The notes below the pieces were generated by a model. The model was not told the DNA's origin. It made no database searches and worked only from the letters and a program-made list of their open reading frames with translations. A stretch of 64,000 nt of DNA, from positions 1 through 64,000 of the forward strand of contig NZ_PXXU01000015.1 in NCBI RefSeq assembly GCF_003011925.2, given 5' to 3'. Of the stretch, positions 1 through 6,736 are shown piece after piece. This DNA is from Nitrosomonas supralitoralis. Lineage in GTDB: Bacteria; Pseudomonadota; Gammaproteobacteria; Burkholderiales; Nitrosomonadaceae. The first letter of the stretch is position 1; each line of letters starts with the position of its first letter. Made by a program: the position numbers and the translations under genes.

Positions 1-1753
1 TTTCAGATCATCTGGCGGCTGTGGAAATCCGGCGCAAAAAAACGTATCCTGTTTCTGGCCGATCGCAATATTCTGGTCGACCAGACCAAGAATAACGATT
101 TCAAACCGTTTGGCGCAGCCATGACCAAAATCAGCAAGCGCCAGATCGACAAAAGTTACGAGATTTACCTATCGTTGTATCAGGCCGTGACCGGCAGCGA
201 AGAAGAACAAAACATCTACAAGCAATTCTCGACGGATTTTTTTGACCTGATCGTGATTGATGAATGCCATCGCGGCAGCGCAGCGGAAGATTCCGCCTGG
301 CGCGAAATCCTGGCATATTTTTCCGCTGCCACGCACATCGGCTTAACCGCTACGCCGAAAGAAACCAGGGATGTTTCCAGCATTCATTACTTTGGTGAAC
401 CCGTTTACAGCTATACGTTAAAACAGGGCATTGAAGACGGCTTTCTGGCACCTTACAAAGTCGTGCGTATCGACATCGACAAGGATTTGCAAGGCTGGCG
501 GCCCAGCAAAGGCCAGACCGACAAGCATGGTGAGTTGATTGAAGACCGCATCTACAATCTGAACGACATGGACCGTACGCTGGTACTGGAACAGCGCACC
601 GAACTGGTGGCCCGGAAAATTACCGAATTCCTCACGGCAACAGACCCCTATGCCAAAACCATCGTGTTTTGTGACGACATCGACCACGCCGAGCGCATGC
701 GCCAGGCGTTAGTAAATCTCAATCCGGAAGAAGTGAAAAAAAACCGCAAATACGTGATGCGCATCACCGGCGATGACATCGAAGGCAAGGCTGAACTGGA
801 TAATTTTATCAATCCGGAAGAACGCTACCCGGTAATCGCCACCACATCCAAGCTGATGACAACCGGCGTCGACGCCCAAACCTGCAAATTGGTGGTGCTG
901 GATCAGCACATCAGATCAATGACCGAATTCAAACAAATTATCGGACGCGGCACCCGCATTAACGAGGAATATGGTAAGTTCTGGTTCACCATCATGGACT
1001 TCAAAAAAGCCACAGAATTATTCGCCGACAAGGATTTCGACGGCGACCCCGTGATGATCTACGAACCCAAAAGCAATGAGTGTCCCGTGCCACCCGATGA
1101 AGAGCTCGAAATTAACCTCGATGAAAACGGCACACCGCTTCCCCCCTTAGAAAAAGGGGGGGATCGAGGGGGGATTAGAACCATTCGACACCCGCCGAGT
1201 AAAATACGTCATGGGCGATGTCACCGTGCATATTATTGCCGAACGGGTGCAATACTACGGACCGGAGGGCAAGCTGATTACCGAATCCCTCAAGGACTAC
1301 ACGCGCCACACGGTACGCAAGGATTATGCCTCACTCGATGAATTTCTGCAGCGCTGGAGCCAGTCCGAACGCAAGGCCACCCTTTTGCAGGAACTGGAAC
1401 AACATGGCGTATTGCTGGTACCCCTGGCTGACGAGGTGGGCAAGGATTTTGATGCATTCGACCTGATCTGCCATGTCGCCTTTGACCAGCCACCGCTGAC
1501 CCGTCGCGAACGCGCTGAAAATGTGAAGAAACGCAACTACTTTGCCAAATACAGCGAACAAGCACGCCAGGTATTGGAAAGTTTGCTGGATAAATATGCC
1601 GATACCGGCATAGAAAACATCGAAGACATCAAAATCCTCACGCTCGACCCCTTCAAAGACATGGGCACGGCCAATGAATTGGTGTCCATCTTTGGCGGCA
1701 AGGCCGCCTACTTGGAAGCGCTGCATGAGCTGGAACAAAATCTTTACGCCTGA
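1..1753 (+). pseudogene. hsdR: Type I restriction subunit HsdR, 3' part, frame broken
   Basis: This is the ATP-dependent motor and nuclease subunit of a type I restriction enzyme; its N-terminal part lies before the window. The first frame is open from base 1 and shows SF2 helicase motifs: DECHRGS (motif II), TATPKET (III), then GRGTR (VI). It loses register inside a palindromic repeat at 1141-1176 and runs to a false stop at 1341. The true C-terminus ([17 protein letters not shown] onward) continues one frame over to 1753. Reading six instead of seven G at 1156-1162 restores one continuous frame through the repeat, so the break is a single base in a homopolymer: a real mutation, an on/off slippage switch, or an assembly error. 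hsdM follows 29 bases later. Confidence 0.85.
1141..1176 (+). repeat. G/C-tract palindromic repeat, copy 1 (in hsdR)
   Basis: C6 TTAGAAAAA G7 ATCGA G6 ATT. This is the same architecture as the other copies at the hsd locus: a C-run/G-run hairpin with an A-rich loop, then a second G-run ending in ATT. It is read in frame as PPLEKGG and carries the G7 tract responsible for the hsdR frame break. Confidence 0.8.
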
Positions 1754-1782
1754 TTGAACATGAACCCAAAACCATTTAACTG

Positions 1783-3297
1783 ATGAGCATTTCCTCCACT
1801 ATCAAATCAATCCAGGACATCATGCGCAAGGATGTGGGCGTCGACGGTGACGCCCAGCGCCTGAGCCAACTGGTATGGATGTTGTTTCTGAAAATTTTTG
1901 ACGACCGCGAAAATGAGTGGGAGCTACTGCAGGACGACTACCAGTCGCCGTTGCCGGAGAAATTCCGCTGGCGCAACTGGGCCGCCGATGCCGAAGGCAT
2001 GACCGGCGATGCGCTCAAGCAATTTCTCGATAACGATCTGTTCCCCGCTTTGCAGCAACTCGAAGCCAAAGGCGGCGATCAGCGCGCCTATGTGATCCGC
2101 TCGGTATTCGAAGACGCCTACAACTATATGAAATCCGGCCAGTTGATCCGGCAGGTAATCAACAAGATTCAGGAAGGCGTGGATTTCAACAAGGCCCAGG
2201 AACGCCACCTGTTCGGCGATATGTACGAACAACTGCTGCGCGATTTACAGGCAGCCGGAAACGCAGGCGAGTTTTACACCCCGCGTGCGGTCACCGAATT
2301 CATCGTGCGCAGGGTCAACCCGCGTCTGGGTGAGAAAATCATGGACCCGGCCTGCGGTACCGGCGGTTTTCTTTCCTGCGCCATCGAACACATGCGCAAG
2401 CAGGATGTAAAAACGGTGGAAAACGAAGCGCAACTGCAGGCCAGCATTTTCGGCATCGAAAAAAAACCGTTGCCGCATCTGCTGTGCACCACCAACATGA
2501 TCCTGCACGGCATCGAAGTGCCGAGCAATATCCGTCACGATAATTCGCTGGCGCGACCGCTCATCAGCTGGTCACCCAAAGAACGCGTCGATGTGGTCAT
2601 CACCAATCCGCCGTTTGGCGGTATGGAAGAAGACGGCATTGAAACCAATTTCCCGACGGCGTTCCGCACGCGCGAAACTGCCGATCTGTTTTTGGTGCTG
2701 ATCATGCAACTGCTCAAGCCCGGTGGCCGCGCCGCACTGGTTCTCCCCGATGGCTTCCTGTTCGGTGAAGGCATCAAAACGCGCATCAAGGAAAAACTGC
2801 TGCAGGAATGCAACCTGCACACCATCGTGCGCCTGCCCAACGGCGTATTCAGCCCGTACACCGGGATCAAGACCAATCTGCTGTTTTTCAGCAAAGGCAC
2901 ACCCACTGAGCAAATTTGGTTTTACCAACACCCGTATCCGCCCGGGGTGAAAAGCTACAACAAGACTAAGCCAATGAAGATTGAAGAATTTGATGTCGAG
3001 GCTGCATGGTGGGGCAGGGAGGAAGACGGTTTCAAACAACGCGTGGAAAATGAATACGCCTGGAGAATCGATCTGGCAGACATTCAGGCGCGCAACTACA
3101 ACCTCGACTGCAAAAACCCGCATATTGGGGAACTTGAAATTCACGACCCGGACGTGCTGCTGGCGCAATATCACGCGATGCAAAATGACATTGCTACTCT
3201 ACGCAGTCAGCTAAAAAACACACTAGGCACAGCATTAACATCTTCAATCGACCAAGGTACGGCACAAAAGTCCTCCCCGTTGAAAAAGGGGGGCTAG
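1783..3297 (+). CDS. hsdM: Type I restriction-modification methyltransferase subunit HsdM
   Basis: N6-adenine DNA methyltransferase of the type I system, working with HsdS. The 504-aa product has the N-terminal HsdM helical domain (MSISSTIKSIQDIMRKDVGV), then the SAM-binding motif DPACGTGGFL near residue 190 and the catalytic NPPF motif near 270. The length is normal for the family. The last residues (SSPLKKGG) are encoded by a palindromic repeat, so the stop codon lies inside the repeat and the natural C-terminus may have been replaced. Gene order hsdR-hsdM-DUF559-hsdS suggests one transcription unit. Confidence 0.95.
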   Translation: MSISSTIKSIQDIMRKDVGVDGDAQRLSQLVWMLFLKIFDDRENEWELLQDDYQSPLPEKFRWRNWAADAEGMTGDALKQFLDNDLFPALQQLEAKGGDQRAYVIRSVFEDAYNYMKSGQLIRQVINKIQEGVDFNKAQERHLFGDMYEQLLRDLQAAGNAGEFYTPRAVTEFIVRRVNPRLGEKIMDPACGTGGFLSCAIEHMRKQDVKTVENEAQLQASIFGIEKKPLPHLLCTTNMILHGIEVPSNIRHDNSLARPLISWSPKERVDVVITNPPFGGMEEDGIETNFPTAFRTRETADLFLVLIMQLLKPGGRAALVLPDGFLFGEGIKTRIKEKLLQECNLHTIVRLPNGVFSPYTGIKTNLLFFSKGTPTEQIWFYQHPYPPGVKSYNKTKPMKIEEFDVEAAWWGREEDGFKQRVENEYAWRIDLADIQARNYNLDCKNPHIGELEIHDPDVLLAQYHAMQNDIATLRSQLKNTLGTALTSSIDQGTAQKSSPLKKGG

Positions 3298-3306
3298 GGG
3301 GATTAT
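3273..3306 (+). repeat. G/C-tract palindromic repeat, copy 2 (left flank of DUF559 gene)
   Basis: Forward-orientation copy: CCTCCCCG TTGAAAAA G6 CTA G5 ATTATT. It encodes the HsdM C-terminus and its stop. Its second G-run sits about 9 bases before the DUF559 ATG, where it can serve as the ribosome binding site. It is inverted relative to copy 3. Confidence 0.8.
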
Positions 3307-3307
3307 T

Positions 3308-3712
3308 ATGCAACCCTACAAACCAATTCTGAAACCCTTCGCCCGCAACCTGCGCAGCAACATGACCGATGCTGAACAATTGCTCTGGTCAAAATTGCGC
3401 CGCAAGCAAATTTTAGGCGTGCAGTTTTACCGCCAGAAGCCCTTGGCCAACTACATCGTCGATTTCTATTGCGCAGCAGCCAATCTCGTCATCGAACTGG
3501 ACGGCTCGCAACATTTTGAACCGAATCACCAGGCCAGCGACGCGGAACGAGACCGGATATTGGAATCATTGGGTTTACGAGTGTTGCGCTTTGACAACCG
3601 GCAGGTTATGCAAGAACTGGATGCGGTGATGAGGGTGGTTTTTGAAGCGGTTGAGAAGGGAGTCCTTTTAATCCCCCCTAGCCCCCCTTTTTCAAAGGGG
3701 GGTGGAGTATGA
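3308..3712 (+). CDS. DUF559 family endonuclease-like protein
   Basis: A 134-aa protein of the DUF559 family (PF04480), related in fold to Vsr and other PD-(D/E)XK nucleases. Visible landmarks are the N-terminal ARNLRSNMTDAEQLLWSKLR helix, the core VDFYCAAANLVIELDGSQH with the expected acidic residues (D and E) and QH, and RVLRFDNRQV. This matches a complete domain. The last 13 residues ([13 protein letters not shown]) are encoded by a repeat copy. The ORF is bounded at both ends by inverted repeats and sits between hsdM and hsdS. It may be a nuclease that moves or maintains the repeats, or simply a passenger; its function is not established. Confidence 0.85.
   Translation: MQPYKPILKPFARNLRSNMTDAEQLLWSKLRRKQILGVQFYRQKPLANYIVDFYCAAANLVIELDGSQHFEPNHQASDAERDRILESLGLRVLRFDNRQVMQELDAVMRVVFEAVEKGVLLIPPSPPFSKGGGV
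3670..3703 (-). repeat. G/C-tract palindromic repeat, copy 3 (right flank of DUF559 gene)
   Basis: Reverse-orientation copy: AAT C6 TAG C6 TTTTTCAAA G6. It encodes the C-terminus of the DUF559 protein. Its terminal GGGGGGTGGAG supplies a ribosome binding site to the ATG at 3709. Confidence 0.8.
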
Positions 3713-3952
3713 GCGCTGAAACTCCGGGAATTGATTCTGACAAAAATCGGGACACTAAAACATCCACATCAAAAACACCCCCCGCAACACCCACAACCAC
3801 CACCCCCCCTTTGGAAAAGGGGGGTGGAGTATGAGCGCTGAAACTCCGGGAATTGATTCTGACAAAAATCGGGACACTAAAACATCCACATCAAAAACAC
3901 CCCCCGCAACACCCACAACCACCATCCCCCCCTTTGAAAAAGGGGGGCTAGG
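3709..3952 (+). repeat. 122-bp tandem direct duplication at the 5' end of hsdS
   Basis: Bases 3709-3830 and 3831-3952 are nearly identical; both start ATGAGCGCTGAAACTCCGGG. The period (122) is not a multiple of three, so the upstream copy encodes only a 41-codon ORF that ends at 3834, overlapping the downstream ATG. The downstream copy opens the full hsdS frame. Each unit ends in a palindromic-repeat hairpin (copy 4, a half repeat, at about 3810-3826). Each ATG has GGTGGAG a few bases ahead. Confidence 0.85.
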
Positions 3953-5861
3953 GGGGATTCCAAGAGAGCTAGGATGGATTCACCACCTCGACATCTGGAC
4001 CAGCGCCGAAACAGAAAAGAAATCAGGCCGTGGCCGCACTGGCAGAAATGGCGCCAGCGTATACGGCGTCCAGAAACTGCGCGAACTGATTCTGGAACTG
4101 GCGGTGCGCGGAAAATTGGTGCCACAAGATCCGAACGATGAACCAGCTGGTGAGTTAATCAAGCGGATACAGATAGAAAAAGCAAAGCTGATAGCGAAAG
4201 GCAAAATCAAGAAAGATAAACCGATACCGCCAATTTTGGATGAGGAAAAACCGTTTGAACTGCCGCAAGGGTGGGAGTGGGTGAGATTAGACGATATTGG
4301 AAGCACTTTTATAGGATTGACATATTCACCCAAAGATATTTCTGATAATGGAATTCCCGTTTTACGCTCTTCTAATATCCAAAATGGAAAAATTGATCTA
4401 TTGGATTTGATAAGGGTTAGTGGAAATATCAAAAGTAACTTATTTGTTGATGAAGGCGATCTATTAATTTGCGCTCGAAATGGTAGTAAATCATTAGTTG
4501 GCAAAACTGCGATGATCGAGAATCTAAATGAACCTATGGTTTTTGGTGCATTTATGGCGATATACAAGAGCCCACTTAATTTTTATGTTCAAGTTTTTTT
4601 GAATTCACCTATTTTTAGAAGCCTCTTAGATGGTGTTTCAACTACAACTATTAATCAAATAACACAAAATAATCTCAAAACTACACTAACTTCACTCCCA
4701 CCCCTCCCCGAACAACATCGCATCGTAACCAAAGTCGATGAACTGATGGCGCTGTGCGATCAACTGGAAACGCAGCACAGCAACGCCGCTGAAGCGCACG
4801 AAAAACTGGTAAATCATCTGCTCGGCACATTGACTCAATCGCAAAGCGCGGATGACTTCAGCGCCAATTGGCAGCGCATTGCTGCGCATTTTGATACTTT
4901 ATTCACCACCGAAGCCAGCATCGACGCACTCAAGCAAACCCTGCTACAACTCGCGGTGATGGGCAAACTCGTGCCGCAAGACCCAACCGATGAACCGGCC
5001 AATGAATTGCTCGAGCGCATCCAGGCGGAAAAAGCCAGGTTGATGGCTGAGGGGAAGATCAAGAAAGGCAAATCCCCCCTAACCCCCCTTTTACCAAGGG
5101 GGGAAACAGGTTCAGCTGCAGCAACCTCAATCAATCCCACTACAACCACTTTTTCTACTCCCCCTCTTTCTAATTCCACCCCTAACCCTAACTCCACCCC
5201 CCCCTTTGAAAAAGGGGGGCCGGGGGGGATTCAACGAGGAATTTCAGAGGAGGAAAAATCGTTTGTATTGCCGCAGGGATGGATGTGGGTGAGGCTTGAC
5301 GAGATTACATCAAAGATAACTGATGGCGATCACAAAACACCACTAAGAATTTTAGAAGGCTTCAGGCTATTTTCTGCCAAAAATGTTCGTGATGGCTATC
5401 TGGATTTCGATAATTGTGACTTCATTTCTGAACAAGATTATCTGAACTCCAGGGAACGTTGCTGCCCGGACACTGGTGACCTACTCATTGTTTCTGTTGG
5501 AGGAACTATCGGACGAACATCTCTCGTCCCTGTTGATTCAAATTTTGCGTTAGTGAGAAGTGTAGCGCTTATAAAACCATTGCTATTCAACAGTTACTAT
5601 TTAAAGCAGGCAATGGATTCAAACCTGCTTCAAGAATCAATTCACGCAAGAAAACGTGGAGGCGCGCAACCTTGTCTTTATTTATCGGAAATTGAACAAT
5701 TTGTTTTCCCACTTCCACCCCTCCCCGAGCAACACCGCATCGTCGCCAAAGTCGACGAACTCATGTCTCTCTGCGACCAACTCAAATCCACTATCACGCA
5801 AGCCAGTCAGTTACAGAAAAAACTGGCGGATGTTGTGGTTGAGCAGGCAATAGCTTTCTGA
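3831..5861 (+). CDS. hsdS: Type I restriction specificity subunit HsdS (repeat-enlarged)
   Basis: DNA-recognition subunit with two target-recognition domains. Each half begins with the conserved LAVRGKLVPQDPNDEPA or LAVMGKLVPQDPTDEPA helix and ends with LPPLPEQHRIV.KVDEL. The halves cover about residues 80-320 and 365-655 of 676. This is longer than most HsdS proteins because repeat copies add low-complexity linkers: residues 1-60 (Thr/Pro-rich, PPFEKGGLGGI) and about 415-470 (SPLTPLLPRGE to PPFEKGGPGGI). All insertions keep the frame. The start at 3831 is chosen for its GGTGGAG ribosome site and because the duplicated upstream ATG (3709) is out of frame. Confidence 0.92.
   Translation: MSAETPGIDSDKNRDTKTSTSKTPPATPTTTIPPFEKGGLGGIPRELGWIHHLDIWTSAETEKKSGRGRTGRNGASVYGVQKLRELILELAVRGKLVPQDPNDEPAGELIKRIQIEKAKLIAKGKIKKDKPIPPILDEEKPFELPQGWEWVRLDDIGSTFIGLTYSPKDISDNGIPVLRSSNIQNGKIDLLDLIRVSGNIKSNLFVDEGDLLICARNGSKSLVGKTAMIENLNEPMVFGAFMAIYKSPLNFYVQVFLNSPIFRSLLDGVSTTTINQITQNNLKTTLTSLPPLPEQHRIVTKVDELMALCDQLETQHSNAAEAHEKLVNHLLGTLTQSQSADDFSANWQRIAAHFDTLFTTEASIDALKQTLLQLAVMGKLVPQDPTDEPANELLERIQAEKARLMAEGKIKKGKSPLTPLLPRGETGSAAATSINPTTTTFSTPPLSNSTPNPNSTPPFEKGGPGGIQRGISEEEKSFVLPQGWMWVRLDEITSKITDGDHKTPLRILEGFRLFSAKNVRDGYLDFDNCDFISEQDYLNSRERCCPDTGDLLIVSVGGTIGRTSLVPVDSNFALVRSVALIKPLLFNSYYLKQAMDSNLLQESIHARKRGGAQPCLYLSEIEQFVFPLPPLPEQHRIVAKVDELMSLCDQLKSTITQASQLQKKLADVVVEQAIAF
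3924..3959 (+). repeat. G/C-tract palindromic repeat, copy 5 (hsdS N-terminus)
   Basis: Forward copy: C7 TTTGAAAAA G6 CTA G6 ATT, read in frame as PPFEKGGLGGI. It is the best-preserved copy in the window. Confidence 0.8.
5071..5105 (-). repeat. G/C-tract palindromic repeat, copy 6 (hsdS linker)
   Basis: Reverse copy: AAT C6 TAA C6 TTTTACCAA G6, read as SPLTPLLPRGE. It lies between the two recognition halves of hsdS and forms an inverted pair with copy 7, about 90 bases apart. Confidence 0.75.
5196..5231 (+). repeat. G/C-tract palindromic repeat, copy 7 (hsdS linker)
   Basis: Forward copy: C-run, TTTGAAAAA, G6 CC G7 ATT, read in frame as PPFEKGGPGGI. With copy 6 it brackets a Thr/Ser/Pro/Asn-rich stretch that the first half of hsdS does not have. 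Confidence 0.8.
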
Positions 5862-5869
5862 ACGAATGT

Positions 5870-6736
5870 ATGAATCGCACTCAGCTTGTCCTGTTCACCC
5901 TTGCCAGCGGCCGCTCGGGCACGAGTTATCTTGCCGATTTCTTCGCCAAGAACATTACGCAGTGTTACAGCACGCACGAGCCCTATTTTACGTTTGGAAA
6001 CCCCACGCTGTTTGGCAAGCCGATCGCCTGGAATACGCGGCATAACGACCGCGCCTTATTGCCGGTGCTGGAGCGCAAGTGCCGTTTTATCGTCAGCCGC
6101 AAGGAACCAGTTTATTTTGAATCCAATCATGCTTTCCTCAAGGCCTTCAATCGTCATGCCGGAGCACTGTTAAACAACCCTGGTTTTATTCATTTGGTGC
6201 GCCATCCGTTACGGGTGGCAAAAAGCGAATATGTGCGCGAGCAGATGATACGCAAGTGGCATTTTCCATTTGCCGATTACACCAGCGATACCGGCGAGCG
6301 CTATTTCCGCTGGGCATTGACCGGGCAGGAAGATGTATTCCGACACTATCCGTCATCACTCAGCCGCTTTCAGTTTTATCTGTTGCAGTGGCTGGAAATT
6401 GAGTACCGCGCGATGCAGTTAATTCACGACCATCGCTGGCAAGCACGCGTGTTTTTTATCGATGTTGGCGTGGATCTGAAACAGGAAGCGGTGCTGAAGA
6501 ACATGGTCAGATTTTTTGATTTGCCGCATCAGCCGGTCTTTAAGATGGATCTGCGCCGCAACCAAACTCCGTTTATCGACCCGACCCTCGTCACGCAACA
6601 GGATAAACAGGAATTCCAGGCGATTGCGCGCCATTTACCCGAGCGTTATAAAAAGCTGCTGCAAAATAAGCCTTATCGTGATTGCAGCTGGTTCACCGAA
6701 GTGAACCAGCTCATGATCGAAGGCAGCCGAGCATGA
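5870..6736 (+). CDS. Sulfotransferase family protein
   Basis: A 288-aa protein resembling PAPS-dependent sulfotransferases. The N-terminal phosphate-binding loop LASGRSGTSYLADFF (residues 12-26) matches the 5'-PSB motif, and HLVRHPLRVAKSEYVRE (about 103-119) matches the 3'-phosphate-binding motif with its Arg and Ser. The acceptor cannot be told; a cell-surface glycan or lipid is typical. It starts 8 bases after the hsdS stop without a strong ribosome site and is convergent with cusA, whose stop lies 21 bases beyond it. It may be a host gene marking the edge of the hsd insertion. Confidence 0.7.
   Translation: MNRTQLVLFTLASGRSGTSYLADFFAKNITQCYSTHEPYFTFGNPTLFGKPIAWNTRHNDRALLPVLERKCRFIVSRKEPVYFESNHAFLKAFNRHAGALLNNPGFIHLVRHPLRVAKSEYVREQMIRKWHFPFADYTSDTGERYFRWALTGQEDVFRHYPSSLSRFQFYLLQWLEIEYRAMQLIHDHRWQARVFFIDVGVDLKQEAVLKNMVRFFDLPHQPVFKMDLRRNQTPFIDPTLVTQQDKQEFQAIARHLPERYKKLLQNKPYRDCSWFTEVNQLMIEGSRA

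Follow-up and report, generated by a model that had tools for sequence, protein, structure and literature searches.

Does a small nuclease-like gene that lies between two inverted copies of a palindromic repeat form a mobile unit together with that repeat? The question is raised by a locus of Nitrosomonas supralitoralis within the first 64,000 nucleotides of contig NZ_PXXU01000015.1 (hereafter the window, meaning the whole stretch analysed), where a DUF559 gene sits between hsdM and hsdS (Table 1). Beyond the window, DUF559 genes and repeats of this kind were associated in position, in layout and in their occurrence across genomes, the repeats shared a mirror symmetry, and units of gene plus repeats were gained and lost. 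We think it somewhat probable that the unit is a mobile element of repeat and nuclease, similar to the REPtrons, in which a DUF559/YcjD-type nuclease is the dedicated partner of an intrastrand-triplex repeat.

The DUF559 gene and its repeat in the window

The window gene matched PF04480 in a profile search (E 1.8e-36, 124.8 bits, cut-off 20.6), the only such match in the whole genome. An earlier note, made from the window sequence without database searches, had described the gene as bounded by inverted repeats that provide ribosome sites and are read through in frame, and this description held: copy 2 in forward and copy 3 in reverse orientation enclose the open reading frame (ORF), copy 3 is read in frame in DUF559 and copy 5 in hsdS, and the stop codon of hsdM and the G-rich sites ahead of two ATGs derive from repeat sequence or the repeat edge, copy 2 supplying both the hsdM stop and the site ahead of the DUF559 ATG. 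As the note also stated, the final DUF559 codons read through the reverse copy, with the stop codon 8 to 10 bases past it; the ATG follows the forward copy after three bases and not after two. The consensus of the repeat, CCCCCCTTTGAAAAAGGGGGGCTAGGGGGGATT, consists of a hairpin and a G-tail, and seven copies, some of them worn, lie between 1141 and 5231. None was found elsewhere in the 64-kb window, all seven lying in the hsd region, and none in four mononucleotide shuffles of the window scanned on a single strand; base composition predicted 9e-8 exact 20-base cores per window, and no Rfam match was found within window positions 900-5900. The note's placement of the five further copies in neighbouring hsd genes alone was thus correct for the window and too narrow for the genome, in which nine stems at no more than two mismatches comprised these seven and two on contig C172 (1149-1212), limiting the repeat to two hsd regions; a reversed stem pattern, searched in the same genome as a control, gave no matches. 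The C172 pair is opposed, with its tails outward, and is read in frame within an ORF (L007, 713-1264) that we took to be a second hsdS-like gene.

Inverted repeats flank DUF559 genes in many phyla

Whether other DUF559 genes are enriched in flanking repeats, a test set by the earlier note, was evaluated with an inverted-flank score, defined as the best local alignment between the 220 bases upstream and the reverse-complemented 220 bases downstream. For the order of the window genome we used the 70 best-scoring DUF559 loci outside that genome (66 scored, 4 dropped), alongside 30 Vsr loci (one dropped at a contig start) and Y1 transposase genes assigned by E-value and frame length to the IS200 type (30 loci, of which 21 or 22 had sufficient flank) or to the type of REP-associated tyrosine transposases (RAYTs; REP, repetitive extragenic palindrome), the latter represented by 20 hand-chosen places, of which 19 or 20 were scored. 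A score of at least 16 was reached at 49/66 DUF559 loci, compared with 0/29 Vsr loci, 0/21 IS200-type loci and 1/254 shifted windows; RAYT-type genes, serving as the positive control, reached it in 10/19. A multi-phylum set of DUF559 loci from genome contigs (72 scored, 8 dropped for short flanks) leaned towards relatives of the window protein because its 80 loci were the best 80 of 568, and here 42/72 scored at least 16 against 3/598 windows shifted within the same loci, and 32/72 scored at least 20 against 0/598. Flanks swapped between different loci of this set reached 16 in 43/426 cases because repeats of different genomes resemble each other. A second scan, for any pyrimidine-arm hairpin and blind to both sequence and flank similarity, found hairpins on both flanks of DUF559 at 37/66 order loci and 40/72 multi-phylum loci (shifted windows, 1/253 and 0/613) and on both flanks of none of the controls (Vsr, 0/29; RAYT-type, 0/20; IS200-type, 0/22). 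Tails mostly pointed towards the gene, with 66 towards, 14 away and 15 unclear on the left side and 73, 14 and 17, respectively, on the right, where the DUF559 ORF reached the repeat or its tail in 84/104 cases.

Relatives of the window DUF559 protein occurred in 42 of 72,556 plasmid records and 10 of 50,697 phage records. Given this rarity, known phages and plasmids are not the main home of these relatives. Six plasmid loci were opened from the 25 matches listed among these 42 plasmid records, and in five of them the scan placed hairpins no further than about 600 bases away; they stood on both sides in L359 only and on one side in the other scan-positive loci, whereas the hairpins of L358 were visible by eye only and no hairpin was seen upstream in L361. 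Four of the records designated as plasmids (H14 and H22-H24, from E. coli and Neisseria gonorrhoeae) are 2 to 5 Mb long and resemble chromosomes. DUF559 units in Xanthomonas (L118) and Lysobacter (L097) adjoin similar ends of neighbouring genes, possibly a hot spot or an old insertion. Weak DUF559-like matches at the C terminus of frames of about 1500 amino acids or more represent a separate subfamily.

Repeat and gene occur in the same genomes

We counted the stem pattern CCCTCTCCC(N1-8)GGGAGAGGG in 300 genomes of the order, taking E <= 1e-20 as a strong DUF559 match; the pattern covers one stem variant, so that the window genome itself was scored as having DUF559 without the stem. Stems were present in 65/85 genomes with strong DUF559 and in 35/215 without (odds ratio 16.7, p 8e-23), at a mean of 22.4 and 1.6 copies per genome, respectively, the relation of repeat number to DUF559 presence being one that the earlier note had proposed to test. 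Vsr showed no such relation (stem in 23/62 genomes with Vsr vs 77/238 without, p 0.55). When gene presence was shuffled within families, the 65 observed coincidences for DUF559 compared with 52.2 expected and were reached in 0/5000 shuffles, while Vsr gave p 0.35. In 203 genomes drawn from the whole class, a set partly shared with that of the order (G440 and G049 show identical coordinates), the corresponding counts were 38/44 with DUF559 and 38/159 without. Neither of the outcomes that the earlier note had named as refuting, a lack of flank enrichment at other DUF559 genes or equal repeat abundance in genomes lacking DUF559, was seen in the sets analysed, although within E. coli the motif persists in genomes without the gene (see below). 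A search for the window-type stem in genomes hand-picked from the multi-phylum loci, in which some matches were the flanking copies themselves, found it in 10/13 genomes with window-type repeats at DUF559 and 2/12 others, with one hit for the reversed control. In genome G158, which has 497 stems, a repeat copy lies at the end of two contigs, L288 and L290, or no more than about 60 bases from it; assemblies may therefore break at repeats.

The type of repeat also followed the protein. Among 42 DUF559 loci with a clear pair, with phyla assigned by hand from record titles, repeat similarity correlated with protein identity (rho 0.45 over all pairs and 0.40 over pairs from different phyla; 0/1000 permutations reached either), and a shared phylum added 0.05 to repeat similarity once protein identity was accounted for. 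Repeat type hence tracks the protein more than the host: the window type accompanies relatives of the window protein in Gallionella, Rhodocyclaceae, Chlorobaculum, Omnitrophota, Nitrospirota and Dehalococcoidales, and many other DUF559 loci carry repeats of the CCCTCTCCC or CCTTCCCC type.

Whole units are gained, lost and multiplied

Loci with and without the unit, which the earlier note had proposed to align in search of empty sites, were found at conserved junctions. At the first, trpG-trpD by our own reading of the sequence, 10/12 congeneric genomes were matched: in five, the empty ones, the aligned gene ends lie 15 bases apart and a DUF559 motif is absent, and the other five are filled, with 494-846 bases that held DUF559 and hairpin repeats in every case. 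At the second junction 6/8 genomes were matched, and the five loci checked comprised two with DUF559 and three without. In one genome (G217) the unit had multiplied, with three units at 1.27, 1.53 and 2.85 Mb whose proteins are 98% identical; two are near-identical over 592 bases (alignment score 586), and the third, which differs more, can be aligned over 587-608 bases. Similarity extends about 40-47 bases beyond the left stem and 28-41 bases beyond the right one, after which the flanks are unrelated. Within the set of 23 loci compared, the nearest relative was a copy in the same genome in 6, same-genome copies being otherwise mostly distant. Repeats also occurred as doublets without a gene: in the Nitrospirota genome of locus L065 (G318), 7 of the 10 stretches opened were, by reading, arrangements of stem and tail, spacer, then tail and stem. 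A small element in the same genome (L278-L287), with ends like TGCCTCTGAATGATTTTCAG, contains at one position a repeat doublet in some instances and a single stem in others.

The repeat fits the intrastrand-triplex family

A feature that the earlier note had missed is a third strand: the tail of the repeat mirrors the purine 3' arm of its stem. Copies with an all-G arm, or with an arm holding C or T, were excluded from mirror scoring, and the 159 informative copies flanking DUF559 had a mean mirror score of 6.43 out of a maximum of 9; with permuted arms the mean was 3.43 (at most 4.09 in 500 permutations), and scoring as a direct repeat gave 2.80. Scores of at least 7 were found in 119/159 copies, the window consensus copy scored 9 of 9, and the symmetry of tail and stem was kept although the sequences differ. 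Judged from its sequence, the repeat fits the purine-motif intrastrand-triplex family whose members are named boxC, PIT and TM, repeats present in more than 260 bacterial genomes and spread by means not known, according to the part of that work available to us (PMC4666352). E. coli MG1655 has 23 copies of its member, TM_ECO, with five opposed pairs; the triplex forms in vitro, no stable triplex was found in vivo, and the authors state that no mobility gene was ever found around TM_ECO (PMC4666352, in part).

E. coli K-12 also has a DUF559 gene, ycjD (b1289, 1351407-1351760), 168 bases from TM_ECO no. 9 (1351204-1351239), a proximity with a chance probability of about 0.003 given one gene and 18 TM loci; on inspection by eye, ycjD continues at its 3' end into a worn repeat copy. 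We found no literature tying DUF559 or ycjD to boxC/PIT/TM repeats among the open-access papers listed, and neither ycjD nor DUF559 is mentioned in PMC4666352. E. coli strains lacking ycjD were rejected as clean empty sites because both of those opened (L362 and L363, from AVS0155 and A37) have an efflux operon adjoining sapF where ycjD is missing.

The protein is a predicted Vsr-like nuclease

An AlphaFold model of the window protein (predicted local distance difference test score 84.7) had as its best match in the PDB NGO0050 (3hrl, E 2e-7, 39% identity), which we take to be a DUF559 protein, followed by the homing endonuclease I-Bth0305I (3r3p, E 6.6e-4) and the 5-hydroxymethylcytosine enzyme AbaSI (4par, E 1e-3), and Vsr itself matched weakly (1cw0, E 0.26). 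Residues E23, D52, D65, H69 and D78 were invariant in 18 aligned DUF559 sequences, and three of four active-site spacings equal those of Caulobacter VsrA as given in the available part of PMC12907096, with D78 as the last residue on our own reading. By its residues and modelled fold, the window DUF559 protein is thus predicted to be a Vsr-like nuclease. VsrA has a DUF559 domain and is a proposed mismatch-repair nuclease; loss of the cytosine methyltransferase ScmA in Caulobacter leads to an SOS response that depends on vsrA (PMC12907096, in part).

How the unit may spread, and what else could explain it

We propose that repeat copies, when single-stranded, for instance on the lagging strand, would fold as a hairpin or triplex, and that DUF559 would recognise this fold and not one fixed sequence, nicking or cleaving at or near it. 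Repair of the break could then place a copy of a doublet, or of the gene-carrying unit, at a new site. The nuclease would in this way spread its own gene as well as doublets that lack a gene, in the manner proposed for RAYTs acting on REPs, but by a homing-type nuclease chemistry; in the window, the unit would have entered the hsdM/hsdS junction, with further copies settling in the hsd genes. That the nuclease acts on the repeat is our inference.

Several results weigh against this proposal. No clear inverted pair was seen at 17/66 order loci and 30/72 multi-phylum loci, and among the pairs found by the hairpin scan the tails were strictly inward at both sides in only 26/37 and 16/40, respectively. 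The direct orientation also scored at least 16 in 30/72 multi-phylum loci, which weakens the word inverted, though high direct scores are expected because the repeats are near-palindromic and their copies clustered. Neighbouring repeats less than 200 bases apart, in ten stretches of seven other genomes, had mixed orientations (same-direction 5, inward 3, outward 2, unclear 2), so that the inward doublet of the Nitrospirota genome is not general. Among the 35 order genomes with the stem and no strong DUF559, 18 had 5 or more copies, and in E. coli the 36-base motif was present in 4559/5426 genomes and most of the ycjD locus in only 3334. No target-site duplication was seen at the three units of G217. 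The correlation of repeat with protein could reflect co-evolution, or joint travel of a gene and its flanks. Matches to the Y1 transposase profile (Y1_Tnp) correlated with the stem as well (80/181 genomes with a match vs 20/119 without), did so still in genomes lacking DUF559 (27/112 vs 8/103, p 0.0014) and weakly when shuffled within families (80 observed vs 75.5 expected, p 0.042). Among open-access papers we found none describing binding or cutting of the repeat by DUF559, and the sole DUF559 protein found with genetic data, VsrA, is proposed for mismatch repair (PMC12907096, in part).

Alternatively, the repeats might spread by slippage, recombination or an unknown host factor, with a useful or neutral DUF559 gene travelling as a passenger because any segment recombines more readily between inverted repeats; triplex DNA may also be unstable. 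Instability in E. coli has been linked to TM repeats (PMC4666352, in part), solo stems and doublets exist without a DUF559 gene, repeats persist in E. coli genomes lacking ycjD, and the tandem duplication in the window has repeat stems at its joints. A passenger role is nevertheless unlikely in our view, since among the families tested only DUF559 showed the flanking repeat, the stem co-occurred with DUF559 and not with Vsr, and the orientation of the tails and the correlation of protein and repeat across phyla also speak against it. Less probable again is a role in host repair, in which DUF559 would be a Vsr-like mismatch or structure nuclease that guards or processes triplex repeats, repeat-rich genomes would keep it, and its position would be secondary. 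The vsrA-dependent SOS response of Caulobacter and the co-occurrence of DUF559 with repeat number agree with such a role, which leaves unexplained the frequent position between two copies, the gain, loss and multiplication of the unit, and the tracking of protein type by repeat type. It is very improbable that a RAYT or other Y1 transposase moves the repeats with DUF559 as cargo, as the correlation of Y1_Tnp with the stem might suggest, since the DUF559 association persisted in genomes without any Y1_Tnp match (stem in 12/16 with DUF559 vs 8/103 without), Y1_Tnp added nothing among DUF559 genomes (53/69 vs 12/16), and RAYT-type genes, where their inverted flanks were clear, had a different repeat family, with hairpins of the DUF559 kind on both sides at 0/20.

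If a DUF559 nuclease is the partner of these repeats, two orphans would explain each other: the triplex repeats and DUF559, a nuclease-like family that is widespread but has no settled role. Short palindromes would then have a second route of spread, unrelated to RAYTs, possibly through an enzyme that reads DNA triplexes, and this might also explain why annotated proteins contain peptides derived from repeats. More tentatively, and on balance with some doubt, the unit may represent a separate class of minimal mobile DNA in which a triplex-fold-reading Vsr-like nuclease spreads itself and its doublets, the boxC, PIT and TM repeats in E. coli and hundreds of other genomes being its remains and YcjD the E. 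coli enzyme. As E. coli K-12 holds both ycjD and the TM_ECO copies, the pairing is testable there.

The hsd region of the window

Table 1. Genes, repeat copies and duplication in the hsd region of the window
Feature	Position	Strand	Remarks
Repeat copy 1	1141-1176	+	In hsdR; G7 run
hsdM	1783-3297	+	Last codons and stop derived from the repeat
Repeat copy 2, worn	3275-3304	+	Stem CCCCGTTGAAAAAGGGGGG, tail CTAGGGGGATT; left border of the unit
DUF559 gene (predicted Vsr-like PD-(D/E)XK)	3308-3712	+	ORF of 134 amino acids; PF04480 profile match
Repeat copy 3	3670-3702	-	Perfect consensus; right border of the unit
Tandem duplication, 122 bp	3703-3946	+	Halves 3703-3824 and 3825-3946; 4 mismatches
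Repeat copy 4	3804-3824	+	Stem without tail
hsdS	3831-5861	+	Methylase_S, two matched stretches
Repeat copy 5	3927-3959	+	Perfect consensus; within the hsdS frame close to its start
Repeat copy 6	5071-5103	-	In hsdS, ahead of the second Methylase_S match
Repeat copy 7	5199-5231	+	In hsdS

Relatives of hsdM at E <= 1e-100 were present in 24/300 order genomes, the window genome included, and the 3' end was read in 13 of the 23 others. The next gene starts at once or 12 bases after hsdM in 12 of these 13, and by reading of the sequence it is hsdS-like in ten of them and some other gene in the remaining two; hsdM and the next gene overlap in the nearest relative (87% identity). In the thirteenth, of the same genus, hsdM is broken and the stretch after it is a different one. 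Because hsdM so regularly adjoins the next gene, the window stretch from about 3270 to 3960 is most simply read as an insertion. At one of the 13 loci (L301), the gene downstream of hsdM contains a stem of the window type, about 249 bases past the hsdM stop, and the genome holds 33 stems of the CCCTCTCCC type, as if hsd loci ferry these repeats between species; the other 12 loci had none of the three stem patterns tried. In the window, the 122-bp duplication spans the start of the hsdS frame and a repeat stem ends each of its halves, and the tails of copies 6 and 7 point outward. The hsdR frame shifts near copy 1, with an ORF at 121-1341 and its C-terminal continuation at 1211-1753 in a different frame; the break may be real, reflect a switchable G tract or stem from a mistake in the assembly.

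Comparison with known systems

Like the REPtrons and TIRYTs, as described in the available part of PMC3733652, the unit places a small gene between inverted repeats, and its cognate repeats are dispersed as singles and opposed doublets, also without a gene and also within coding genes. It differs in its enzyme, a predicted PD-(D/E)XK Vsr-like nuclease where REPtrons have an HUH/Y1 transposase, and no Y1_Tnp match was found in the window DUF559 gene by profile search. It differs also in its repeats, which lack the GTAG tag and have a mirror third strand; no GTAG head was present on the window copies as read. The GTAG and CGTC REP families were rejected for the window repeat since their tags are absent. 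Where the inverted flanks of RAYT-type genes of the order are clear, their repeats are different ones, for example GGGGACAGACCAC, GGGGTCAGAGTCA and GGGGACGCTACCC; these are similar to GGGGWSAS, a motif reported for TIRYTs (PMC3733652, in part), and a RAYT origin is disfavoured. The earlier note's suggestion of a unit analogous to REP and RAYT with an unrelated enzyme is well supported at the genomic level.

The homing endonuclease I-Bth0305I, which is akin to Vsr, was the second-best PDB match of the predicted fold and shares the logic of a selfish nuclease; it is borne by an intron and aimed at the intronless allele, whereas DUF559 is flanked by repeats of its own. Vsr and VsrA belong to the same superfamily as the window protein, and Vsr (PF03852) differs in having neither the flanking repeats nor the co-occurrence with the stem. 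With the boxC, PIT and TM repeats, the window repeat has in common a pyrimidine-rich arm, a purine-rich arm, a G-rich mirror third strand, opposed pairs and dispersed copies, as well as a second loop of 3 bases, TTA or CCG in E. coli (PMC4666352, in part). The sequences differ, being CCCCCCTTT/AAAGGGGGG/GGGGGGATT in the window type and CCCTCxCCC in E. coli, and a gene partner or mobility function was not previously known for those repeats, going by the same part of that work (PMC4666352).

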